A stretch of 64,000 nt of DNA. It comes from Gammaproteobacteria bacterium. Its GTDB lineage: Bacteria; Pseudomonadota; Gammaproteobacteria; Pseudomonadales; Azotimanducaceae. Positions 33,744-43,331 of this stretch are shown piece after piece. Positions within the stretch are counted from its first letter, which is position 1. Each line of letters starts with the position of its first letter. Where the stretch lies: contig JAPOVK010000027.1 of NCBI GenBank assembly GCA_026708185.1, forward strand, positions 1-64,000, written 5' to 3'. Under the pieces are notes generated by a model, which worked only from the letters and a program-made list of their open reading frames with translations, did no database searches and was not told the origin of the DNA. A program made the translations under genes and the position numbers.

Positions 33744-34313
33744 ATGCCCAAGGCAACCCGATTCGAGGTCGTATCCCACGACGACGAACCGCTGATCCTG
33801 GTCGACGGCGAGGATCGCCAGATCGGAACGCTCGACAAGGCTTCGTGCCACGACGGGGATGGCCGGCTTCACCGGGCGTTCTCGCTGTTCGTGTTCAATG
33901 CCGACGGCGACACGCTCCTGCAGCAGCGGCATCCGGACAAGCGGCTGTGGCCGGGGTTCTGGTCCAACGCCTGCTGTTCCCATCCGCGGCGCGGCGAGGC
34001 GCTGCCCCAGGCGGTGGTTCGCCGCGCCGACGAGGAACTCGGGCTCGCGGTCGTGCCCGAATTCCTTTTTAAGTTCCAGTACCAGGCTGCCTTCGCGGAT
34101 GTCGGGAGCGAGTTCGAGCTGTGCTCCGTCTTCGTCAGCCACGGCTCGTGGCAGCCCCGGATCAACACGGCGGAGATCGCCGATTGGCGTTGGATCTCGC
34201 CCGAGGACCTCGACCGGGAGATCGACGCGTGGCCGGCGGTGTTCACGCCGTGGTTCAAGATCGAGTGGCAACGCTTGACGAGTGAATTCTCCGCGCGCAT
34301 TCGGCCGCCATGA
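33744..34313 (+). CDS. idi: Isopentenyl-diphosphate delta-isomerase (Nudix, type 1)
   Basis: HRAFSLFVFNADGDTLLQQRHPDKRLWPGFWSNACCSHPRRGE, EELG and EFELCSVF motifs. Confidence 0.92.
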   Translation: MPKATRFEVVSHDDEPLILVDGEDRQIGTLDKASCHDGDGRLHRAFSLFVFNADGDTLLQQRHPDKRLWPGFWSNACCSHPRRGEALPQAVVRRADEELGLAVVPEFLFKFQYQAAFADVGSEFELCSVFVSHGSWQPRINTAEIADWRWISPEDLDREIDAWPAVFTPWFKIEWQRLTSEFSARIRPP

Positions 34314-34391
34314 TTGGGCGGGCCAGGCGCAGTCTTGATCGGGTACGTACCTCCAATTACAGTTCGCGAACCTGAGAGGAACGAGTCGAGC

Positions 34392-35558
34392 ATGTCGCAG
34401 CCTCCCGGCGCGTATGCTGCGGGTTACGCCAAGGCTTGCGCCGTCGACTCCGAACTGGCCGCAAACTACATTCGGCACACGCGTATTGGCGATCCGGATC
34501 TCGATCCCGTGATGGCGGATGTCGCCGACCTCGATGGCGGATTGCTGAACCGCTTCATTCGCGCCGGCATCGAGGCGGATGAGGCGGAGTTCAAACGCGC
34601 GCCGCAGTCGCTCCGACATTTCTTCGACGATAAGGTCGGCCGGCCTTCATGGGTGGACTTCGAGGCCCACGCCCCCGCCGTGCGTGCGTTCAACCTCAAC
34701 GCCGCCAATATGCTCGTCGCGTTTGTCTGCGGCGTCCTCATCGAGGGCTTCTCCACGCTCATCTCGAAGTCGTTCGCGACCACCGGCCGCGTTCTGACAC
34801 CCGAGTCGGGCCGGCGCCGCCTGATGCAGAACAACCGCCATCTCATGGAAGTGTTCTATCCCGGAGGCCTCGAGAGGCATGGGGATGGATGGAAACTCTC
34901 GACGCGTGTCCGGTTCGTGCACGCGCGAGTCCGCCATCTTCTGGCGGAATCCGGTGCCTGGGCCACACCGGAGGTCGGAACCCCAATCAGCGCCGCGCAC
35001 ATGGGACTCGCCCTGACGGTCTTCTCCATGCGATTGCTGGACCACGCCGCCCGGGTGGGGGCGGCTTTCAACGACGACGAACAGGCCAGCGTCATGCATG
35101 TCTGGCGCTATGCCGGATGCATCATGGGCGTGCCCACCGACATTCTGTACGATGATCGTGACCACGCCAGACAGATCTTCCGGATCGCCCACCTTTGCGA
35201 GCCGACACCGGATGCCGACGCGGCAACGATGGCGAACGCCCTGATCGGGGCTATTCCGCTGACCGCCGGGATCGATGATGCGCGCCGGCAACGCGAGGTG
35301 GTCCGGCTCGCCTACCGACTATCTCGCGCCCTGATCGGCGGCAAACTCGCCGATCAGCTGCAGTTCCCGAGGATGATGACCACAGGCTCGCTGTTGGCCT
35401 TTCGGACCCGACAAAAGGTGCAGCGGCTGTTGCAGGGCCGGCAGACGGTGAGGTCGAGCAACTTCTCGCAATTGCTGGACATTTCCGTCTACGACGCGCC
35501 CGACGAACGCTACCGAATGCCCGACCACTACCTGTCGTCCCGCTCTCGACCCTGGTAG
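34392..35558 (+). CDS. DUF2236 family protein (MpaB/latex-clearing-protein-like)
   Basis: FVCGVLIEGFSTLISKSFATTGRV, RVRFVHARVRHLL, AHMGLALTVFSMRLLD, WRYAGCIMGVP. Confidence 0.82.
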   Translation: MSQPPGAYAAGYAKACAVDSELAANYIRHTRIGDPDLDPVMADVADLDGGLLNRFIRAGIEADEAEFKRAPQSLRHFFDDKVGRPSWVDFEAHAPAVRAFNLNAANMLVAFVCGVLIEGFSTLISKSFATTGRVLTPESGRRRLMQNNRHLMEVFYPGGLERHGDGWKLSTRVRFVHARVRHLLAESGAWATPEVGTPISAAHMGLALTVFSMRLLDHAARVGAAFNDDEQASVMHVWRYAGCIMGVPTDILYDDRDHARQIFRIAHLCEPTPDADAATMANALIGAIPLTAGIDDARRQREVVRLAYRLSRALIGGKLADQLQFPRMMTTGSLLAFRTRQKVQRLLQGRQTVRSSNFSQLLDISVYDAPDERYRMPDHYLSSRSRPW

Positions 35559-35575
35559 TCGGGTACGCTCTGCAC

Positions 35576-37906
35576 ATGACGGATAGCCCACAAGCGGACG
35601 AGCACGGCGCCGCGGAACGGGGGTCGGCAGCCTTGGTGCGCTACACCGAAGCGCTGCTGGCCCGCCCTTGGCTGGTCGTGGCGACCACGGCGTTGGCGAT
35701 GCTGATCCTAGGCGCCGGGGCCGTTTCCATCGGCGTCACCAACGACCACCGCGTGCTCTTCGACGAGCGCAATCCGCAGTTGCTCGCCTACCAGGCCCTC
35801 GAGGCCACGTACACCGAGTCAGACACCGCCTTGATCGCTGTCGCCCCAGACGAGGGGGCCGTGTTCACCCGCGAGGCGCTTGGCCTCATCGAAGCGTTGA
35901 CCGAGTCGGCCTGGCAGACGCCCTACTCGATTCGCGTCGACTCGCTGACCAACTACAACCACAGCGAGTCGTCGGGCGATGACCTCATCGTCGGACCGCT
36001 CGTTCAAGACGCGGCAGCTCTCGACGACGCCGCCGTGGCCCGCGTCGAGCAGATCGCCCTCAACACGCCCGAGACCGTCGGCCGACTGGTGTCCGCCGAT
36101 GGACGCGTGGGGGCACTGGCGATCACCTTCGCCTTGCCGGAGGATCCCGATGCGGCAGTGATCGAAATCACCGACCACTTGCACGGCGTCCTCGACGAGT
36201 ATCGCAGCGCGTATCCCCAGATCGGCCTGCACGTCACCGGCGACGTGCTGATGAACCGCGCTTTCGCGGACGCAACGCGGGACGATCTAGAGAAGCTGAC
36301 GCCCATCGTCTTTGTCGTCATCGTGCTCGTCACCATTGCCATCCTGCGCTCGCTGCTGGCAACGGTGGCGGTCGTGGTCACCCTCATGTTCACGATCAAC
36401 ACCACCATGGGTTTCGCAGGCTGGGTGGGCACGGTGTTCAATCCGGTCAACGCCGGCGTACCGTTGATCGTGCTGACCATCGCCGTGGCGGACTCCATCC
36501 ACATCGTCTCGAGCACGATGACCGGGCTCGCCCGCGGGTTGACGAGACACGAGGCGATCATCCGCTCGATCCGCGACAACGCCTACCCGGTGCTCCTCAC
36601 GTCGGTTACCACCGCCTTGGCGTTCCTTACTCTCAATGCGTCCGAAGCGCCGCCGTTCCGGGTACTCGGCAACCTGGTCGCATTCGGCGTCATTTGCGCC
36701 TTCGTGTTTTCCATGACCCTGTTGCCCGCCGTGCTCGCCTTGCTGCCGCTGCGCGGTCGCGAACGCGCGGACTGGCGTTTCCTCGACCGCCTGGCGAGCT
36801 TCGTCATCGCGCGCCGCGTCACGCTCATCTGGACGATGAGCCTCCTCACCGTGGGCGTGATCGCCGGGGCTTTGAGGCTCGACTTCACAGACAACTGGAC
36901 CACGTACTTCGACGACCGCTACGAGTTCAGGCGCGACACGGACTTCGTCGTCGAAAACCTGACGGGGCTCGAGTCTTGGGAGTATTCCCTGGACTCAGGC
37001 AGCGAAGGCGGCATCACCGACCCGGACTACCTCAAGGCGGTCGATGGCTTCGCCGAGTGGTTGCGCGAACAGCCCGAGGTCAGCCATGTGCAGGCGTTCA
37101 CGGACGTCATGAAACGTTTGAACAAGAACATGCACGGCGACGATCCCGCGTACTACCGACTCCCCGATAACGGCGAACTTGCCGCGCAATACCTGCTGCT
37201 TTACGAACTGTCGCTCCCGTTCGGCAACGACCTCAACGATCGACTCGACGTCGCCAAGTCGGCGACGCGGCTGACCGCGATGGCGCGGGGTGGTCTTACC
37301 GCGAGCCAGCAGCGGGAATTCGACGTCCGGGCGCAGGATTGGCTGCTGGCCAATGCACCCGACCTCGCATCCCCCGCCACCGGCTTCACGATCACCTTCG
37401 CGCACCTGTCGCAACGCAACATCGAGAGCATGCTCCAAGCCACCATCCTCGCCATGGGCGGCATCTCCATCATCCTGCTCCTGGTGCTGAAGAGCTGGCG
37501 GCTCGGGCTCATCAGCCTGGTGCCGAACTACATCCCCGCGGCCATGAGTTTCGGCGTGTGGGGATACCTGGTCGGCCAAGTCGGCCTGGCGGGCTCGGTC
37601 ATGACCGCCGTCGCGTTCGGCATCGTCGTGGACGACACGACGCACTTCCTCACCAAGTACCAGCGCGTTCGACGCGCGGGGCAATCCGCCCCTGACGCTG
37701 TGCGTGCTACGTTCGCCGAGACGGGTCGTGCGCTCTGGACGACAACGGCAATTCTGGTGGCGGGCTTCCTCGTTTTCGCGTCATCGGGCTTCGAGGTGAG
37801 CTGGACGCTTGGCGTGCTGGTGGCCATCACACTTGCCTTGGCGCTGGTTGCCGACTTCCTGCTACTTCCGCCCTTGCTCATGACCCTCGATCGGAGAAAG
37901 ACATGA
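35576..37906 (+). CDS. MMPL/RND superfamily exporter
   Basis: Two sets of TM helices; VVDDTTHFLTKYQRVRRAG; large periplasmic loops. Confidence 0.92.
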   Translation: MTDSPQADEHGAAERGSAALVRYTEALLARPWLVVATTALAMLILGAGAVSIGVTNDHRVLFDERNPQLLAYQALEATYTESDTALIAVAPDEGAVFTREALGLIEALTESAWQTPYSIRVDSLTNYNHSESSGDDLIVGPLVQDAAALDDAAVARVEQIALNTPETVGRLVSADGRVGALAITFALPEDPDAAVIEITDHLHGVLDEYRSAYPQIGLHVTGDVLMNRAFADATRDDLEKLTPIVFVVIVLVTIAILRSLLATVAVVVTLMFTINTTMGFAGWVGTVFNPVNAGVPLIVLTIAVADSIHIVSSTMTGLARGLTRHEAIIRSIRDNAYPVLLTSVTTALAFLTLNASEAPPFRVLGNLVAFGVICAFVFSMTLLPAVLALLPLRGRERADWRFLDRLASFVIARRVTLIWTMSLLTVGVIAGALRLDFTDNWTTYFDDRYEFRRDTDFVVENLTGLESWEYSLDSGSEGGITDPDYLKAVDGFAEWLREQPEVSHVQAFTDVMKRLNKNMHGDDPAYYRLPDNGELAAQYLLLYELSLPFGNDLNDRLDVAKSATRLTAMARGGLTASQQREFDVRAQDWLLANAPDLASPATGFTITFAHLSQRNIESMLQATILAMGGISIILLLVLKSWRLGLISLVPNYIPAAMSFGVWGYLVGQVGLAGSVMTAVAFGIVVDDTTHFLTKYQRVRRAGQSAPDAVRATFAETGRALWTTTAILVAGFLVFASSGFEVSWTLGVLVAITLALALVADFLLLPPLLMTLDRRKT

Positions 37907-38700
37907 CTCGCTCGTGCATCATCGCAATCGTCGTCGCGACGACGCTCCCCGGTTCGGAAGCGGTCGCCCAGGATCTCTCCGAGGCTGAACAGAAGGGGCT
38001 CGACATCGCGCTCGAGGCGCGGGAGAGGCGGCTCGGTTTCGGGAACTTCACCGCCCGCCAGAACATGCTGCTGCGCAACAAGCGCGGCCAGGAGAGCCAG
38101 CGCGAGCTGCGCGTCAAGGTGATGGAAGTCGACGGCGACGGCGACATGAGCCTGTTCGTCTTCGACGAACCGCGCGATGTCCAGGGCACGGCCTTCCTGA
38201 TCCACGCCCACAAGGACAAGGGCGACGACCAATGGCTCTATCTGCCGGCGCTGAAGCGCGTGAAGCGCATCAGCTCCGGCAACCGCTCCGGCTCGTTCAT
38301 GGGCAGCGAGTTCGCCTACGAGGACATGACCCCGCCCGAGGTGGAGAAATTCACCTACCGGCACCTGCGCGACGAACCCTGTGGCGAGTTGACCTGCACC
38401 GTGGTGGAACGGAGTCCCACGGACGAACGGTCGGGGTACAGCCGCCAAACCGTCTGGCGGGACACCGAGGAGCTTCGGATCTGGAAAGTCGAGTACTTCG
38501 ATCGCAAGGACGCCCATTTGAAGACGCTTAACCTCGACGGCTACGAACGTCACCTGGATCGCTTCTGGCAGGCCGGCCAGATGGACATGGTCAATCACCT
38601 GACCGGGAAGTCCACCACGCTCACCTGGACCGACTACCTTTTCCAGACCGAACTAGACGCCGGAGACTTCACGCAGGCCGGTTTGAGGCGCGCGCGTTAA
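37903..38700 (+). CDS. Outer membrane lipoprotein-sorting protein, LolA-like
   Basis: DDQWLYLPALKRVKRISSGNRSGSFMGSEFAYEDM and WKVEYFDRKDAHLKTL; overlaps MMPL stop. Confidence 0.88.
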   Translation: MTRSCIIAIVVATTLPGSEAVAQDLSEAEQKGLDIALEARERRLGFGNFTARQNMLLRNKRGQESQRELRVKVMEVDGDGDMSLFVFDEPRDVQGTAFLIHAHKDKGDDQWLYLPALKRVKRISSGNRSGSFMGSEFAYEDMTPPEVEKFTYRHLRDEPCGELTCTVVERSPTDERSGYSRQTVWRDTEELRIWKVEYFDRKDAHLKTLNLDGYERHLDRFWQAGQMDMVNHLTGKSTTLTWTDYLFQTELDAGDFTQAGLRRAR

Positions 38701-38701
38701 G

Positions 38702-40378
38702 ATGCTCCACGGTCGGCGACCTACCGGGTTGCACGCCCGCAAGCTCGCAGCCCTCGTCTTCCTCGCTCTCGCGCTCACCGGGCCAGCTTACGACACGGCG
38801 GCGGACACGGCCTCGTCCGGCGTGGTCGTGTTCGGGAGCTACCTGGATGCGCGCGCAGCGGAACGTCAGGCCGAGATCGTGGCCGAGCGGCTTGGCATTG
38901 CGCTTGCCGTGGTGGAAGCCCGAATCGGCGACACGGTCTACCACCGCGTCGTTTCCGACCACCTCCTCGAGGGTTCGGCCCGGCAGATGATCGAGCGCGC
39001 CGCACAGCGCGGCCACGACGCATGGTTCGCCGTCGCGCGGGCACCCCTCGACGAGGTCGTGAACGTCGTGCCCGACTCGCCCGAAAAGCCACCCCCAGAG
39101 CCTGTGGCAGTGCCCGCGCCCACGCCGAGAGTGGTGGTCGACGAGCCTGCTGCGACGGCAGTCGACGACATCGCCGTTTCCATCGATGTCCCCGACACGG
39201 CCTGGACGGACCGCTTCAGCCGCATCGATCTGACCGGAAGCTTGAGCGCCCAGACAAGGCTGTTCTACCGCCGCATCGGCCACGCCGGACAGAGGTCCCG
39301 CCCTAGCGGCTTGGTGGCGATGCCGCAACTGTACGTGGAGGACCGGACCGGCTGGAGCTTCACGCTGTCGCCGTTCTACCGTTTCGACAGCGACGATCCC
39401 GAGCGTACGCACGCCGACCTCCACGAGGCCTACGCCCTGTTCTACGGTTCGCTGGGCGAAGGGCAGTGGGAGACACGCCTAGGCGTCGACCGCGCATTCT
39501 GGGGCGTCGTCGAGTCCAACAACCTCGTCGACATCGTCAACCAGGTCGACCTGGTCGAACACCCGGACGAAAAGTCCAAGCTCGGCCAGCCGATGGCCTA
39601 TTTCGCCTACATTGGAAACTGGGGGACGATGGAGCTCTTCGGCTTGCCGTATCACCGCCAGAGGACGTTCCCCGGGTACCCTGGCCGGCTGAGGTTCCCA
39701 TGGCTCGTGGACGACGAGATCGTCACCTTCGAGAGCGATAAGGAGGAACGGCACGTCGACGTGGCCGCGCGCTACAGCCACACCTTCGGGCTCTTGGACA
39801 TCGGCATCAGTGCATTCCAGGGGACGAGCAGGGAACCCTTCCTGGCCCCTAGGATTCGCGCAGGGGGCGAAATCGCCCTGGCACCCCACTACGAGCAGAT
39901 TCAGCAAGCCGGTCTCGACGGCCAAGTCACCCTCGATACGTGGCTCTTGAAGGTCGAAGCCATCTATCGGAGCGGGATGTCCAATCGCCTCGGCGAGGAG
40001 GAGGACTACGCTTCGTTCGTCCTCGGCGGCGAATACACTTTCCACGGCCTACTCGAGACAGCCGCGGACGTCACCGTTCTCGCGGAGTGGTGCTACGACG
40101 AGCGCGGGATCCGGGCGACCACGAAATTCGACAACGACCTCTTCCTGGCGACGAGACTGTCGCTCAACGACGTTCAGGGTACGGAACTGCTGGTCAGCGC
40201 ATTGCTCGGAACTGACCACGACTCGCGCGTGCTCACGGCCGAACTCAGCGGGCGCCTGACGGATCGATGGTCGGTACGACTCGAAGCGGTCGCCCTGCTC
40301 GAACTCGACCCGTGGGATGTCCTCTACGAGACGCGCCGCGATAGTTTCGTCGAAGTGGGTCTGACGTACAGCTTCTAG
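38702..40378 (+). CDS. Outer-membrane beta-barrel protein with N-terminal SPOR-like segment
   Basis: Signal peptide, SPOR-like FGSYLDARAAERQAEIVAERLG...YHRVV, alternating barrel strands, C-terminal EVGLTYSF. Confidence 0.7.
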   Translation: MLHGRRPTGLHARKLAALVFLALALTGPAYDTAADTASSGVVVFGSYLDARAAERQAEIVAERLGIALAVVEARIGDTVYHRVVSDHLLEGSARQMIERAAQRGHDAWFAVARAPLDEVVNVVPDSPEKPPPEPVAVPAPTPRVVVDEPAATAVDDIAVSIDVPDTAWTDRFSRIDLTGSLSAQTRLFYRRIGHAGQRSRPSGLVAMPQLYVEDRTGWSFTLSPFYRFDSDDPERTHADLHEAYALFYGSLGEGQWETRLGVDRAFWGVVESNNLVDIVNQVDLVEHPDEKSKLGQPMAYFAYIGNWGTMELFGLPYHRQRTFPGYPGRLRFPWLVDDEIVTFESDKEERHVDVAARYSHTFGLLDIGISAFQGTSREPFLAPRIRAGGEIALAPHYEQIQQAGLDGQVTLDTWLLKVEAIYRSGMSNRLGEEEDYASFVLGGEYTFHGLLETAADVTVLAEWCYDERGIRATTKFDNDLFLATRLSLNDVQGTELLVSALLGTDHDSRVLTAELSGRLTDRWSVRLEAVALLELDPWDVLYETRRDSFVEVGLTYSF

Positions 40379-40393
40379 CGGAACGCGGAGAAT

Positions 40394-41134
40394 CTAGCGC
40401 CGATCGAGGGTGGCCAACTCGGCCAGGGCGAGTTCATGGATGAGGCCGTCGAAATGATTCCCAGCCGGCAGTTCCACGGCTCGAGTCAGCAAACTGCGGG
40501 CACGGTCCCGGTGTTTCCGACCGCCGATGGCCAATAGACCGCGTCCGAACTCGTAGTGCGCCACCTTCTCGTCGGGCGCAAGTTCCAGCGTGCGCTCGTA
40601 GTTTTCGATCGCCGCACCTACGGTGGCACCGTAGACCGTTCGGCCCAGGAGGCGGCCGACACCGGCGACCACGTCGGCATGCCAGGACGCGAGGCTGAGG
40701 CACGCCGCCGCCATGTCCGGGTCGAGTTCGAGAACGGCCTCGATCGACTCGCGCGACCGCCCCACGTAGCCTTGCCGCAAAGCCTTCGCCGGACCGATGC
40801 TCTGCGCGTAACGAGCCATCGCGTGGGACAGTTGGAACCGGGCTTCCGCATTCGTCTCGTCGAGCGCCACGGCTCGGCCAGCGAGCTGGTTGGCGCGTTC
40901 GAGGATCGGCACCTTCTCGCCCTCAGGTGCCACGAAATGCCCGTAGACGGCCAAGGCCTCGGCCGCAAGGGCAAGGCCGTCCGATGTACCGAGCGCCTCC
41001 GCCAACTCCGCTGCCTCAAGGTAACGACCTTCGTCAAAGGCCGATTGCGGCGCGGATATGGGGGCATCCGTCGCGAACGCCACCGAGGCGAACAAGACCG
41101 GCGCGACCAACCGTACGACGTCGGTCCCAATCAC
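40394..41134 (-). CDS. Secreted TPR-repeat protein
   Basis: Signal peptide; NQLAGRAVALDETNAEARFQLSHA and ENYERTLELAPDEKVAHYEFGRGLL. Confidence 0.75.
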   Translation of the reverse strand: MIGTDVVRLVAPVLFASVAFATDAPISAPQSAFDEGRYLEAAELAEALGTSDGLALAAEALAVYGHFVAPEGEKVPILERANQLAGRAVALDETNAEARFQLSHAMARYAQSIGPAKALRQGYVGRSRESIEAVLELDPDMAAACLSLASWHADVVAGVGRLLGRTVYGATVGAAIENYERTLELAPDEKVAHYEFGRGLLAIGGRKHRDRARSLLTRAVELPAGNHFDGLIHELALAELATLDRR

Positions 41135-42222
41135 CTTCTTGCGAGGGGCAGGCCCCTCGCGCTCCCGCGCTGAGGGCTCCTCCCGCCGCCCGCACGGGAT
41201 ATCCGCTCCACCGCGCGGTCGAACATCCAGCGCAGGCCCCGATCCCAGCGCACGAGCGCGCTGGTCGCCAAGACGATGGCGCGTACCTCGTTGCGCGAGA
41301 TCTTGACTTGGGCCCCATTGACGAACGCCGGGTTCTCGGCCAGGCGCAGCAGGGTCTGCACGGCCATGCCGAGCGCCCAGAGCAGGAACCGTCGCATGCC
41401 GGCTTCCTTCGCTGGAATCAGCATCGTGTACCTGAACGCGCCCGCCAAGTGACCTGCGGCCACGTAGATCAGCCGCAACATCGCCAGGGCAAACTTGCTG
41501 CCGGCCTGCCCTTTGCCGGGAACGAGGGATGACAGGTCGAGGCCGACGTCCGCGAACACGTCCCGCGGCAGCCAGCAGACTCCGCGTTCCCGGTCCTCCC
41601 AGAAGTCCTTGAGGATGTTCACCATCTGGAGCCCTTGTCCGAAACTCACGGACAAGCCGAGCAGTCGTTCGCGCCGACTCTTGAGGCCAGGCGAATAGTC
41701 GCAGAACAACTCCGTCAGGGTCTCGCCAACGACGCCTGCCACGCAGTAGCAGTATCGATCCAGGTCGCGCATGCCCTCGAGGCCGCGCGGGGTCATCGTG
41801 GCCTGGAACTCGGCCATCCCCGGGGCCATGATGCCGATGCAGCGCTCGATCAGTTGGCGCTGCGAGCGCCGGAATCCACGCGTGATCCCGACGACCGTGT
41901 CTACATTGGCGACGAGATTCCGCTCGGCCTCAATGGTGGCGTCGGACAGCATCGGGTGGAGATCCCGGCCGAATTCGCGCGCCGAAGACCTACCGTTGAC
42001 AACGCTGACGAATCTATCCAGGTAGACGCTCTTCTCGTCCACGGGCAGGGCGGGTTCGTCCTCGATCGTGTCGGCGATCCGACACAGCAGGTAGGCGTTG
42101 CCGACGACGTGGCACAGCGGCTCCGGCAGTTGCGGAATGGTGAGCGCGAAAGTCCGTGAAACGCCGGGCAGCGCTTCGGCCTGATACGCTAGAGATTCCG
42201 CGCTGCTGTTCAGCTTCGGCAC
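41131..42222 (-). CDS. Squalene/phytoene synthase family protein
   Basis: SRTFALTIPQLPEPL, YLLCRIADTIEDEP (DTxED), VNILKDFWEDRERGVCWLPRDVF (DxxxD). Confidence 0.9.
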   Translation of the reverse strand: MPKLNSSAESLAYQAEALPGVSRTFALTIPQLPEPLCHVVGNAYLLCRIADTIEDEPALPVDEKSVYLDRFVSVVNGRSSAREFGRDLHPMLSDATIEAERNLVANVDTVVGITRGFRRSQRQLIERCIGIMAPGMAEFQATMTPRGLEGMRDLDRYCYCVAGVVGETLTELFCDYSPGLKSRRERLLGLSVSFGQGLQMVNILKDFWEDRERGVCWLPRDVFADVGLDLSSLVPGKGQAGSKFALAMLRLIYVAAGHLAGAFRYTMLIPAKEAGMRRFLLWALGMAVQTLLRLAENPAFVNGAQVKISRNEVRAIVLATSALVRWDRGLRWMFDRAVERISRAGGGRSPQRGSARGLPLARR

Positions 42223-42434: not shown

Positions 42435-43331
42435 TCAGGCGGGTGCTAGCCAAACGCACGTGGGGCATTCGGGATCAGCAAGCGAGGCATCCGCGGCGCA
42501 CTGGTACTGCGGCGTGTCGAAGCGTTCTTGCCGGCTGTCGCTGCGCATGACGCCGTCCTTCCAAGTGTCGTCCGCCGCCCAGCGGTAGTCGAGTTCCGTC
42601 ACCGTCCCAGGCACCGTGGCGTCGCGCACGAGATCGAGCGCGTGGCGGACGACATCCCGCTGCATGGCCTTGTCGAACGCCCGACCGGCGGTGCGCCCCA
42701 ACGGGAAGTCGAGGAAGACTGCGCGAGGCGCGCCAGCGGACCGGGTGATCGAGAGCGCGCTCGACAGGCTGACCGACGGAATCCCGCGCGCCTCGACCTC
42801 CCTTCCAATCAGTCCCACGGACTGGTGGCAGACCGGTCAGACAGGCACCATGAGGGCGACGTCGACGGCGTCCGCGACAAGGCGGTCGGCGAGGGCCGGG
42901 GCCAGCACGTCGCGCACCTTGCTGGCCGAGTAGATGCCGCCCATGAACGTATAGGCGTTCGCCCCCACCTCGCCGATGACGCCTTCGGCCGCCAGGCCGC
43001 GAAGGGTCTCAAGGGGAAACACCACGTTCGGATCCTGGCGCGCGTCGGCCTGGTCGTAGGCGAAGTGTGTCGTGCGCAGGTCCTCGACCGGGGTGTCGCG
43101 GGCGATCTCCCGATAGCTGTAGTCGTCTCGGTGATGAAAGGCAATCTGGCCCACGGCGTAGATTCCGCCGGACGCGATCAGACCGATCCGCCACTCGCTC
43201 CGTGGCTTGCTCGTGCGGGCAAGAGCCGCGAGGGGCTCGTTGGCGACCCAGCGGTACGGCGGGTAGCCGAGGGACGAGTACACGGCACGGGTGCGCGCGA
43301 TGTAGTCGACGGGCGGTTGGCGTTCGGTCAT
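42435..43331 (-). CDS. Glycine/sarcosine/betaine reductase selenoprotein B (GrdB/PrdB)-like selenoprotein with in-frame UGA(Sec)
   Basis: Same frame (both ORF ends divisible by 3) on both sides of TGA 42837-42839; translation ...VDVALMVPV-U-PVCHQSVGLIGREVEARGIPSVSLSSALSITRS...; start overlaps the PCD gene stop. Confidence 0.85.
42810..42824 (-). promoter_or_regulatory. Candidate bacterial SECIS hairpin CAGTCC-GTG-GGACTG
   Basis: Perfect 6-bp stem; 3-nt loop beginning with G, 18 nt after the in-frame UGA. Confidence 0.65.

Follow-up and report, generated by a model that had tools for sequence, protein, structure and literature searches.

The subject of this analysis is a seven-gene locus at positions 33744-42222 of a 64,000-nucleotide stretch (the window) of a Gammaproteobacteria bacterium genome of the family Azotimanducaceae (contig JAPOVK010000027.1). 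We propose, with a probability of about 0.55, that in sponge symbionts it works as a module for squalene modification and export into the envelope: a DUF2236 protein (here LCP) would oxidise squalene, and the product would be delivered to the outer membrane. The gene content, the conserved linkage, the LCP fold with its heme-ligand residues and the lack of a cyclase are directly established. From these we infer heme binding by LCP, its substrate and product, and the transport and its direction.

Several lines of evidence favor this proposal. First, the gene order is conserved and squalene genes are linked to 25 of 51 LCP loci. In addition, these genes belong to two unrelated squalene routes, other isoprenoid genes cluster with LCP, and one genome has a second squalene synthase at the LCP locus. 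Finally, LCP matches alkene-cleaving oxygenases, the proteins of the locus diverge in a correlated manner, and the make-up of the transport genes resembles AmeABCD.

The route would start with isopentenyl units of the mevalonate pathway (idi here; a fused HMG-CoA-reductase/mevalonate-kinase gene, HMGR::MVK, at the same spot in most relatives), giving farnesyl diphosphate and then, via the squalene synthase-like protein (SQS, 41131-42222), squalene. In the cytoplasm, squalene or a closely related linear compound derived from it would be the substrate of the LCP-fold protein, which by homology is a b-type heme oxygenase; the likeliest reaction is oxygenation or oxidative cleavage of C=C bonds. 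Its product would exit the inner membrane through the MMPL/HAE3 transporter, be carried over the periplasm by the LolA-like protein, and pass into or through the outer membrane by way of the SPOR-DUF1302 barrel, with the TPR protein as an accessory.

Gene content of the locus

All seven genes were confirmed, five on the plus strand and two, convergent to them, on the minus strand.

33744..34313, plus strand: idi, type I isopentenyl-diphosphate isomerase (Nudix); NF002995 173 bits (cut-off 127), TIGR02150 141 bits (cut-off 106)
34392..35558, plus strand: LCP, DUF2236/MPAB_Lcp_cat, 388 aa, putative squalene-acting heme oxygenase; PF09995 66 bits
35576..37906, plus strand: MMPL/HAE3-type RND inner-membrane transporter, 776 aa; PF03176 121 bits
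37903..38700, plus strand: LolA-like periplasmic carrier with an N-terminal signal-like stretch; PF17131 193 bits, DUF1329 36 bits
38702..40378, plus strand: outer-membrane beta-barrel, DUF1302 type, with an N-terminal SPOR-like domain; Pfam matches of the family and fold model
40394..41134, minus strand: TPR protein, probably exported; weak TPR matches, TPR profile matches
41131..42222, minus strand: squalene synthase-like protein (SQS_PSY) with motifs DTIED and DFWED; PF00494 173 bits

The original prediction described idi, DUF2236, MMPL, LolA and barrel genes as collinear and tightly packed or overlapping from DUF2236 onward, followed by a convergent TPR protein and squalene/phytoene synthase. 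The domain matches and the junctions bear this out. The gaps are 78 bp (idi/LCP), 17 bp (LCP/MMPL) and 1 bp (LolA/barrel), the MMPL and LolA genes overlap by 4 bp, the barrel and TPR genes converge across 15 bp, and the TPR and SQS genes overlap by 4 bp. The LCP start is best placed at the ATG at 34392, preceded by GAGAGG. The window is part of contig C56 in a 5.13-Mb assembly (G000, 97% complete), which was searched protein family by protein family.

LCP loci and their linkage to squalene synthesis

We scanned 84,980 species genomes with an LCP alignment. The scan requires one of two peptide motifs and misses more distant members; low-GC loci were read by tblastn and plain open reading frames. 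It yielded 51 loci of this LCP subfamily, mostly in sponge-associated metagenome-assembled genomes (MAGs) of several phyla, with record titles naming Gammaproteobacteria, Gemmatimonadota, Acidobacteria, Nitrospinota, Chloroflexi and Alphaproteobacteria. The SB06xx MAGs presumably derive from the sponge Ircinia ramosa. The genome prefixes IRC, COS, RHO, CAR and APA appear to correspond to demosponge species of PMC8163846. Clearly not sponge-labelled are a Baikal locus (L170), an Azospirillum locus (L172) and L173-L174. At 39-46% identity they are distant, and MMPL was not seen with LCP in them.

A squalene-synthesis gene lies in the visible flanks of 25 of the 51 loci, compared with 0.35 expected from the density of SQS_PSY (squalene/phytoene synthase) genes. 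This number is raised by close relatives among the loci; even so, the arrangements are of no fewer than nine different kinds. SQS is convergent downstream in the genus, co-directional downstream in L132, co-directional upstream in L135, L141 and L151, divergent upstream in L142-L146 and L160, beyond IspH in Gemmatimonadota L134, and within an SQS-barrel-LolA block in alphaproteobacterial L165. HpnC-HpnD-HpnE lie directly upstream of LCP in Acidobacteria L133, HpnE-D-C are convergent in Dehalococcoidia L167 and L169, and HpnD, also seen at L060/L137, is convergent in L136 and L137; HpnC, HpnD and HpnE at LCP loci score above the NCBIfam cut-offs. The linked genes are of two unrelated types, eukaryote-type SQS (in Gammaproteobacteria, L134 and L165) or HpnC/HpnD/HpnE, a case of non-orthologous replacement. 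Since these are different routes to squalene, the selected partner of LCP would be squalene itself. The linked synthases being of squalene-forming types, a long-chain polyisoprenoid, one of the products first envisaged, is less likely than a C30 squalenoid.

Other isoprenoid genes also cluster with LCP (HMGR::MVK, MVD, PMK, FPPS and IspH), and SQS_PSY is encoded in 46 of the 48 LCP genomes. One of them, G075, carries one SQS in a sterol-type cluster (squalene epoxidase-like::cyclase fusion) and another at the LCP locus. The window SQS, the only SQS_PSY in its genome, scored 98 bits against TIGR01559, below the cut-off of 287; its nearest solved structures are squalene synthases. At L110 an SQS homologue adjoins a genuine hopene cyclase, and at L186 one adjoins a squalene epoxidase-like protein fused to an oxidosqualene cyclase.

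In the same-family genome G019, the hopanoid cluster at L110 (2025-18202) is compact and comprises eukaryote-type SQS, Shc, HpnN, HpnG/HpnA/HpnB-like genes and mevalonate genes including HMGR::MVK. The fusion at L186 (8802-12224) is 1140 aa long, joins a squalene epoxidase-like FAD hydroxylase to the oxidosqualene cyclase, and belongs to a sponge-symbiont sterol-type cluster. Two SQS_PSY domains share one 719-724 aa frame, apparently an HpnC-HpnD fusion, in the genomes of L147, L148, L152, L153 and L156 (G081, G082, G085, G086 and G089), mostly labelled Nitrospinota.

Conservation and spread

The order idi, HMGR::MVK where present, LCP, MMPL, LolA and barrel, with convergent TPR and SQS, is kept in about ten congeners, and an FPPS-type gene often comes next after SQS. 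HMGR::MVK sits between idi and LCP in most congeners. The window genome and its nearest relative (G007) have none at the locus; in the window genome it is on contig C36, beside PMK- and MVD-type genes. idi adjoins the locus in all congeners with contigs reaching that far, and the TPR gene is kept in most gammaproteobacterial versions.

In the 16 members of the genus, LCP, barrel and SQS mostly occur all together or not at all where contigs permit judging, and the near-complete G013 and G015 have none of the three. The exceptions are G002 and G009, whose contigs are broken, G008, whose locus lacks the barrel, and G012, in which SQS is unlinked and LCP is represented only by a 42% relative. Given that the order is kept in nearly all congeners with covering contigs, the grouping of these genes is not due to chance. 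The original prediction had staked itself on conserved gene order. The order is kept within the genus and the gene association recurs across phyla, so an unconserved order is strongly contradicted.

In the LCP tree, Acidobacteria L133 groups with Gemmatimonadota and Gammaproteobacteria fall on several sides, many forks being weak. In the SQS tree, Gemmatimonadota L134 pairs with alphaproteobacterial L165 (98/94). These groupings suggest horizontal transfer, which has been reported for sponge-symbiont sterol clusters (PMC9531527). The LCP-linked SQS genes do not form one clade, indicating that the locus paired with different SQS genes or swapped them.

LCP as a putative heme oxygenase

The structure model of LCP (pLDDT 88.8) has LcpK30 (5o1l) as its top PDB match (TM 0.69-0.71), with t-anethole oxygenase next, and so shows the globin-type fold of Lcp; LCP also has a profile match to LcpK30. 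In the profile alignment, His198, Arg164, Arg195 and Arg202 of LcpK30 correspond to H177, R143, R174 and R181 of LCP, all invariant in 32 relatives, and LCP would accordingly be expected to bind heme. The DUF2236 protein had been assigned to the Lcp/MpaB-type oxygenases; family, fold and heme-ligand residues agree with this, but the Lcp-specific catalytic residues are replaced (by Q146, N147 and S127). Judged by its residues, LCP is a separate DUF2236 branch with the signature RLxQNN. No signal peptide is evident in it, in contrast to extracellular Lcp, and this would fit a substrate located in the inner membrane.

Congeners have another DUF2236 paralogue, about 41% identical to LCP, next to two P450-like genes (L062 9423-10634, L063 9372-10574).

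Transport genes

The best NCBIfam match of the MMPL protein is HAE3 (TIGR00921), below the cut-off. Solved relatives of the LolA-like protein are 3bk5, 9tp6 and 4z48. The window barrel has no Pfam match by itself and a PDB sequence search was empty; of 24 family members, 8 match DUF1302 and 4 match SPOR. Its AlphaFold2 model (pLDDT 68.9) shows a SPOR-like b-a-b-b-a-b domain (about residues 38-111), a linker and a porin-like barrel, and the fold matches porins in the PDB (E about 4e-9). The SPOR domain could anchor the barrel to peptidoglycan. In Pseudomonas putida, DUF1302 and DUF1329 proteins are predicted to act jointly in transport (PMC10866462). Against the PDB, the TPR protein matched generic TPRs only.

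The LolA-barrel pair is also found without LCP, beside topA-like genes or NHLP-type genes for ribosomally synthesized and post-translationally modified peptides (RiPPs). It is thus a general module that was adopted here, and it may serve other cargo too. LolA-barrel pairs, or barrels, adjoin NHLP RiPP precursors and NHLM-like exporters at L040, L041 and L154-L159. The barrel's SPOR-like N-terminal module is fused, in the same genome, to DUF5916 proteins and a TolC-type OEP protein as well (L066 7381-10695 on C10; L067 9599-11941 on C30; L068 7601-10417 on C56).

Weighing the proposal against alternatives

Several observations weigh against squalene oxidation and export. No squalene gene is within view at some LCP loci (Nitrospinota, L138-L140, L154-L159), no LolA-like gene was seen at the Nitrospinota loci, and the barrel is missing at the locus in G008 and G021. 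The divergence of LCP, MMPL, LolA and SQS is correlated (rho 0.73-0.88), but part of this may come from shared descent. A cyclase scored above the cut-off in 15 of the 48 LCP genomes, so a polycyclic substrate is possible in those. Finally, Lys167 (distal), Thr168 (catalytic) and Glu148 (base) of LcpK30 correspond to Q146, N147 and S127 of LCP, invariant in the 32 relatives; without these residues the chemistry may differ. Lys167 is conserved in just 59% of Lcps (PMC5522427). In the open-access literature, no paper was found that deals with this locus or with the action of a DUF2236 protein on squalene.

Of the alternatives, the best surviving is that unmodified squalene, or another neutral isoprenoid, is exported to the outer membrane as a hopanoid substitute, with LCP turning over excess or damaged squalene. 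Squalene is the common denominator of the loci, the window genome has no cyclase, and in Dehalococcoidia LCP occurs with HpnCDE without MMPL. However, where a locus bears MMPL, the gene directly before it is nearly always LCP. This suggests that the cargo is the LCP product, and we consider this alternative unlikely.

Still less likely is a pump that gives tolerance of the host sponge's apolar terpenoids, which LCP would detoxify by cleaving C=C bonds; the squalene genes would then be neighbours for another reason. The transporter types are those of AmeABCD, whose deletion lowers the tolerance of Castellaniella defragrans to apolar monoterpenes (PMC6394551), and the genomes are mostly sponge-associated. 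A xenobiotic pump would nevertheless not be expected to be linked, time and again, to genes of the mevalonate pathway and of two unrelated squalene routes.

The original prediction considered a sterol- or hopanoid-type polycyclic lipid made and shipped to the outer membrane. Its joining of isoprenoid and squalene synthesis to an envelope lipid-transport module stands, but its sterol or hopanoid product does not. In favor of such a lipid, the MMPL protein has Sterol-sensing/Patched Pfam matches above the cut-off, a same-family genome has an SQS homologue together with HpnN in a genuine hopanoid cluster (L110), and some LCP genomes have a cyclase, as noted above. On the other hand, no squalene-hopene/oxidosqualene cyclase (PF13243) was found in the 97% complete window genome, nor in its congeners except G009, which has an epoxidase-like gene and a cyclase, and a marginal match in G015. 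A cyclase gene was not seen within view of any LCP locus. In addition, the MMPL protein scored 100 bits against the HpnN equivalog (cut-off 751.85) and 21.8 bits against BstA (cut-off 1400), and HpnA/B/G are not at the window locus. We regard export of a polycyclic lipid as very unlikely.

The search for cyclase, hopanoid, sterol or carotenoid genes elsewhere in the window genome gave no cyclase, and no HpnE or CrtI above the cut-off among the amine-oxidase-family proteins scanned, so squalene is not expected to become a hopanoid or sterol there. Five of its PF01593 proteins, the strongest among them, were scanned, and none exceeded a CrtI or HpnE cut-off; one is CrtO-like (257 of 1000 bits). 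A hopanoid or sterol product in the window genome was rejected for lack of a cyclase, and a carotenoid was not supported, no CrtI/CrtN-type desaturase scoring above the cut-off among these five. A sterol, hopanoid or usual carotenoid is thus unlikely as the product in this genome.

Least probable of all is an inward module in which the barrel, LolA-like and MMPL proteins import an isoprenoid of the host and LCP cleaves it as a step of catabolism. P. putida does require DUF1302/DUF1329 proteins to grow on Tween 20 (PMC10866462), but the linked genes are biosynthetic and no catabolic genes recur around LCP loci.

Oxidation and export of squalene therefore remains the reading we prefer. More tentatively, and with the odds leaning against it, the locus may make a class of linear triterpenoid that has not been described from bacteria before. 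A Gln/Asn-type DUF2236 heme oxygenase would oxidatively cleave or oxygenate squalene, and a dedicated MMPL-LolA-SPOR/DUF1302 route would deliver the product to the outer membrane or outside; the system would have spread horizontally among multi-phylum sponge symbionts as a cyclase-free counterpart of hopanoids and sterols. Bacterial squalene is known mainly as a precursor of hopanoids, sterols and some carotenoids. If the proposal is true, a squalene locus that recurs without a cyclase and has an oxygenase and an envelope route of its own would add another fate. For a large group of DUF2236 proteins, and likewise for the DUF1302/LolA/HAE3 transport family, it would suggest what the substrate may be. 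It would also point towards a lipid or signal that unrelated sponge symbionts share, in addition to the reported sterol clusters (PMC9531527).

A candidate selenoprotein gene upstream of SQS

A PrdB/glycine-reductase-B-like gene (42435-43331, minus strand) lies just upstream of SQS and has an in-frame TGA at 42837-42839. When the TGA is read as selenocysteine, a UxxC motif (VPVUPVCHQ) appears and the PrdB match rises from 94 to 159 bits, making the product a candidate selenoprotein.

Comparison with known systems

LCP shares with the DUF2236-type heme oxygenases (Lcp, MpaB and t-anethole oxygenase) the domain, the fold, the proximal heme His and the equivalents of Arg164, Arg195 and Arg202. 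It differs from Lcp in having Gln for the distal Lys, Asn for the catalytic Thr and Ser for Glu148, in lacking an evident secretion signal, and in a genome context of squalene synthesis rather than rubber use.

The hopanoid system (SQS or HpnCDE, Shc, HpnN) likewise combines squalene supply with an MMPL/HAE3 transporter. Unlike it, the locus here has no cyclase and no HpnA/B/G, its MMPL protein is far below the HpnN cut-off, and it has a dedicated LolA-like carrier and barrel. We take the TPR protein to be comparable to BstC. BstA/B/C sterol transport and the sponge-symbiont sterol clusters (PMC10942540; PMC9531527) resemble the locus in an RND protein with envelope parts, occurrence in sponge symbionts and cross-phylum spread. 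In contrast, no oxidosqualene cyclase is present here, the BstA score is a small fraction of its cut-off, and in G075, which has both, the sterol cluster lies apart from the LCP locus and has an SQS to itself.

AmeABCD also combines an HAE3/MMPL RND protein, a LolA/DUF1329-type periplasmic protein and a DUF1302-type barrel, and is also tied to terpenoid metabolism; the DUF1302 likeness holds at the family level (8 of 24 members), not for the window barrel itself. An AmeC (YCF48-like) gene is absent from the window locus and from the genes recurring at related loci. The barrel here carries a SPOR-like domain, and the linkage is to biosynthesis and the LCP oxygenase instead of monoterpene degradation.

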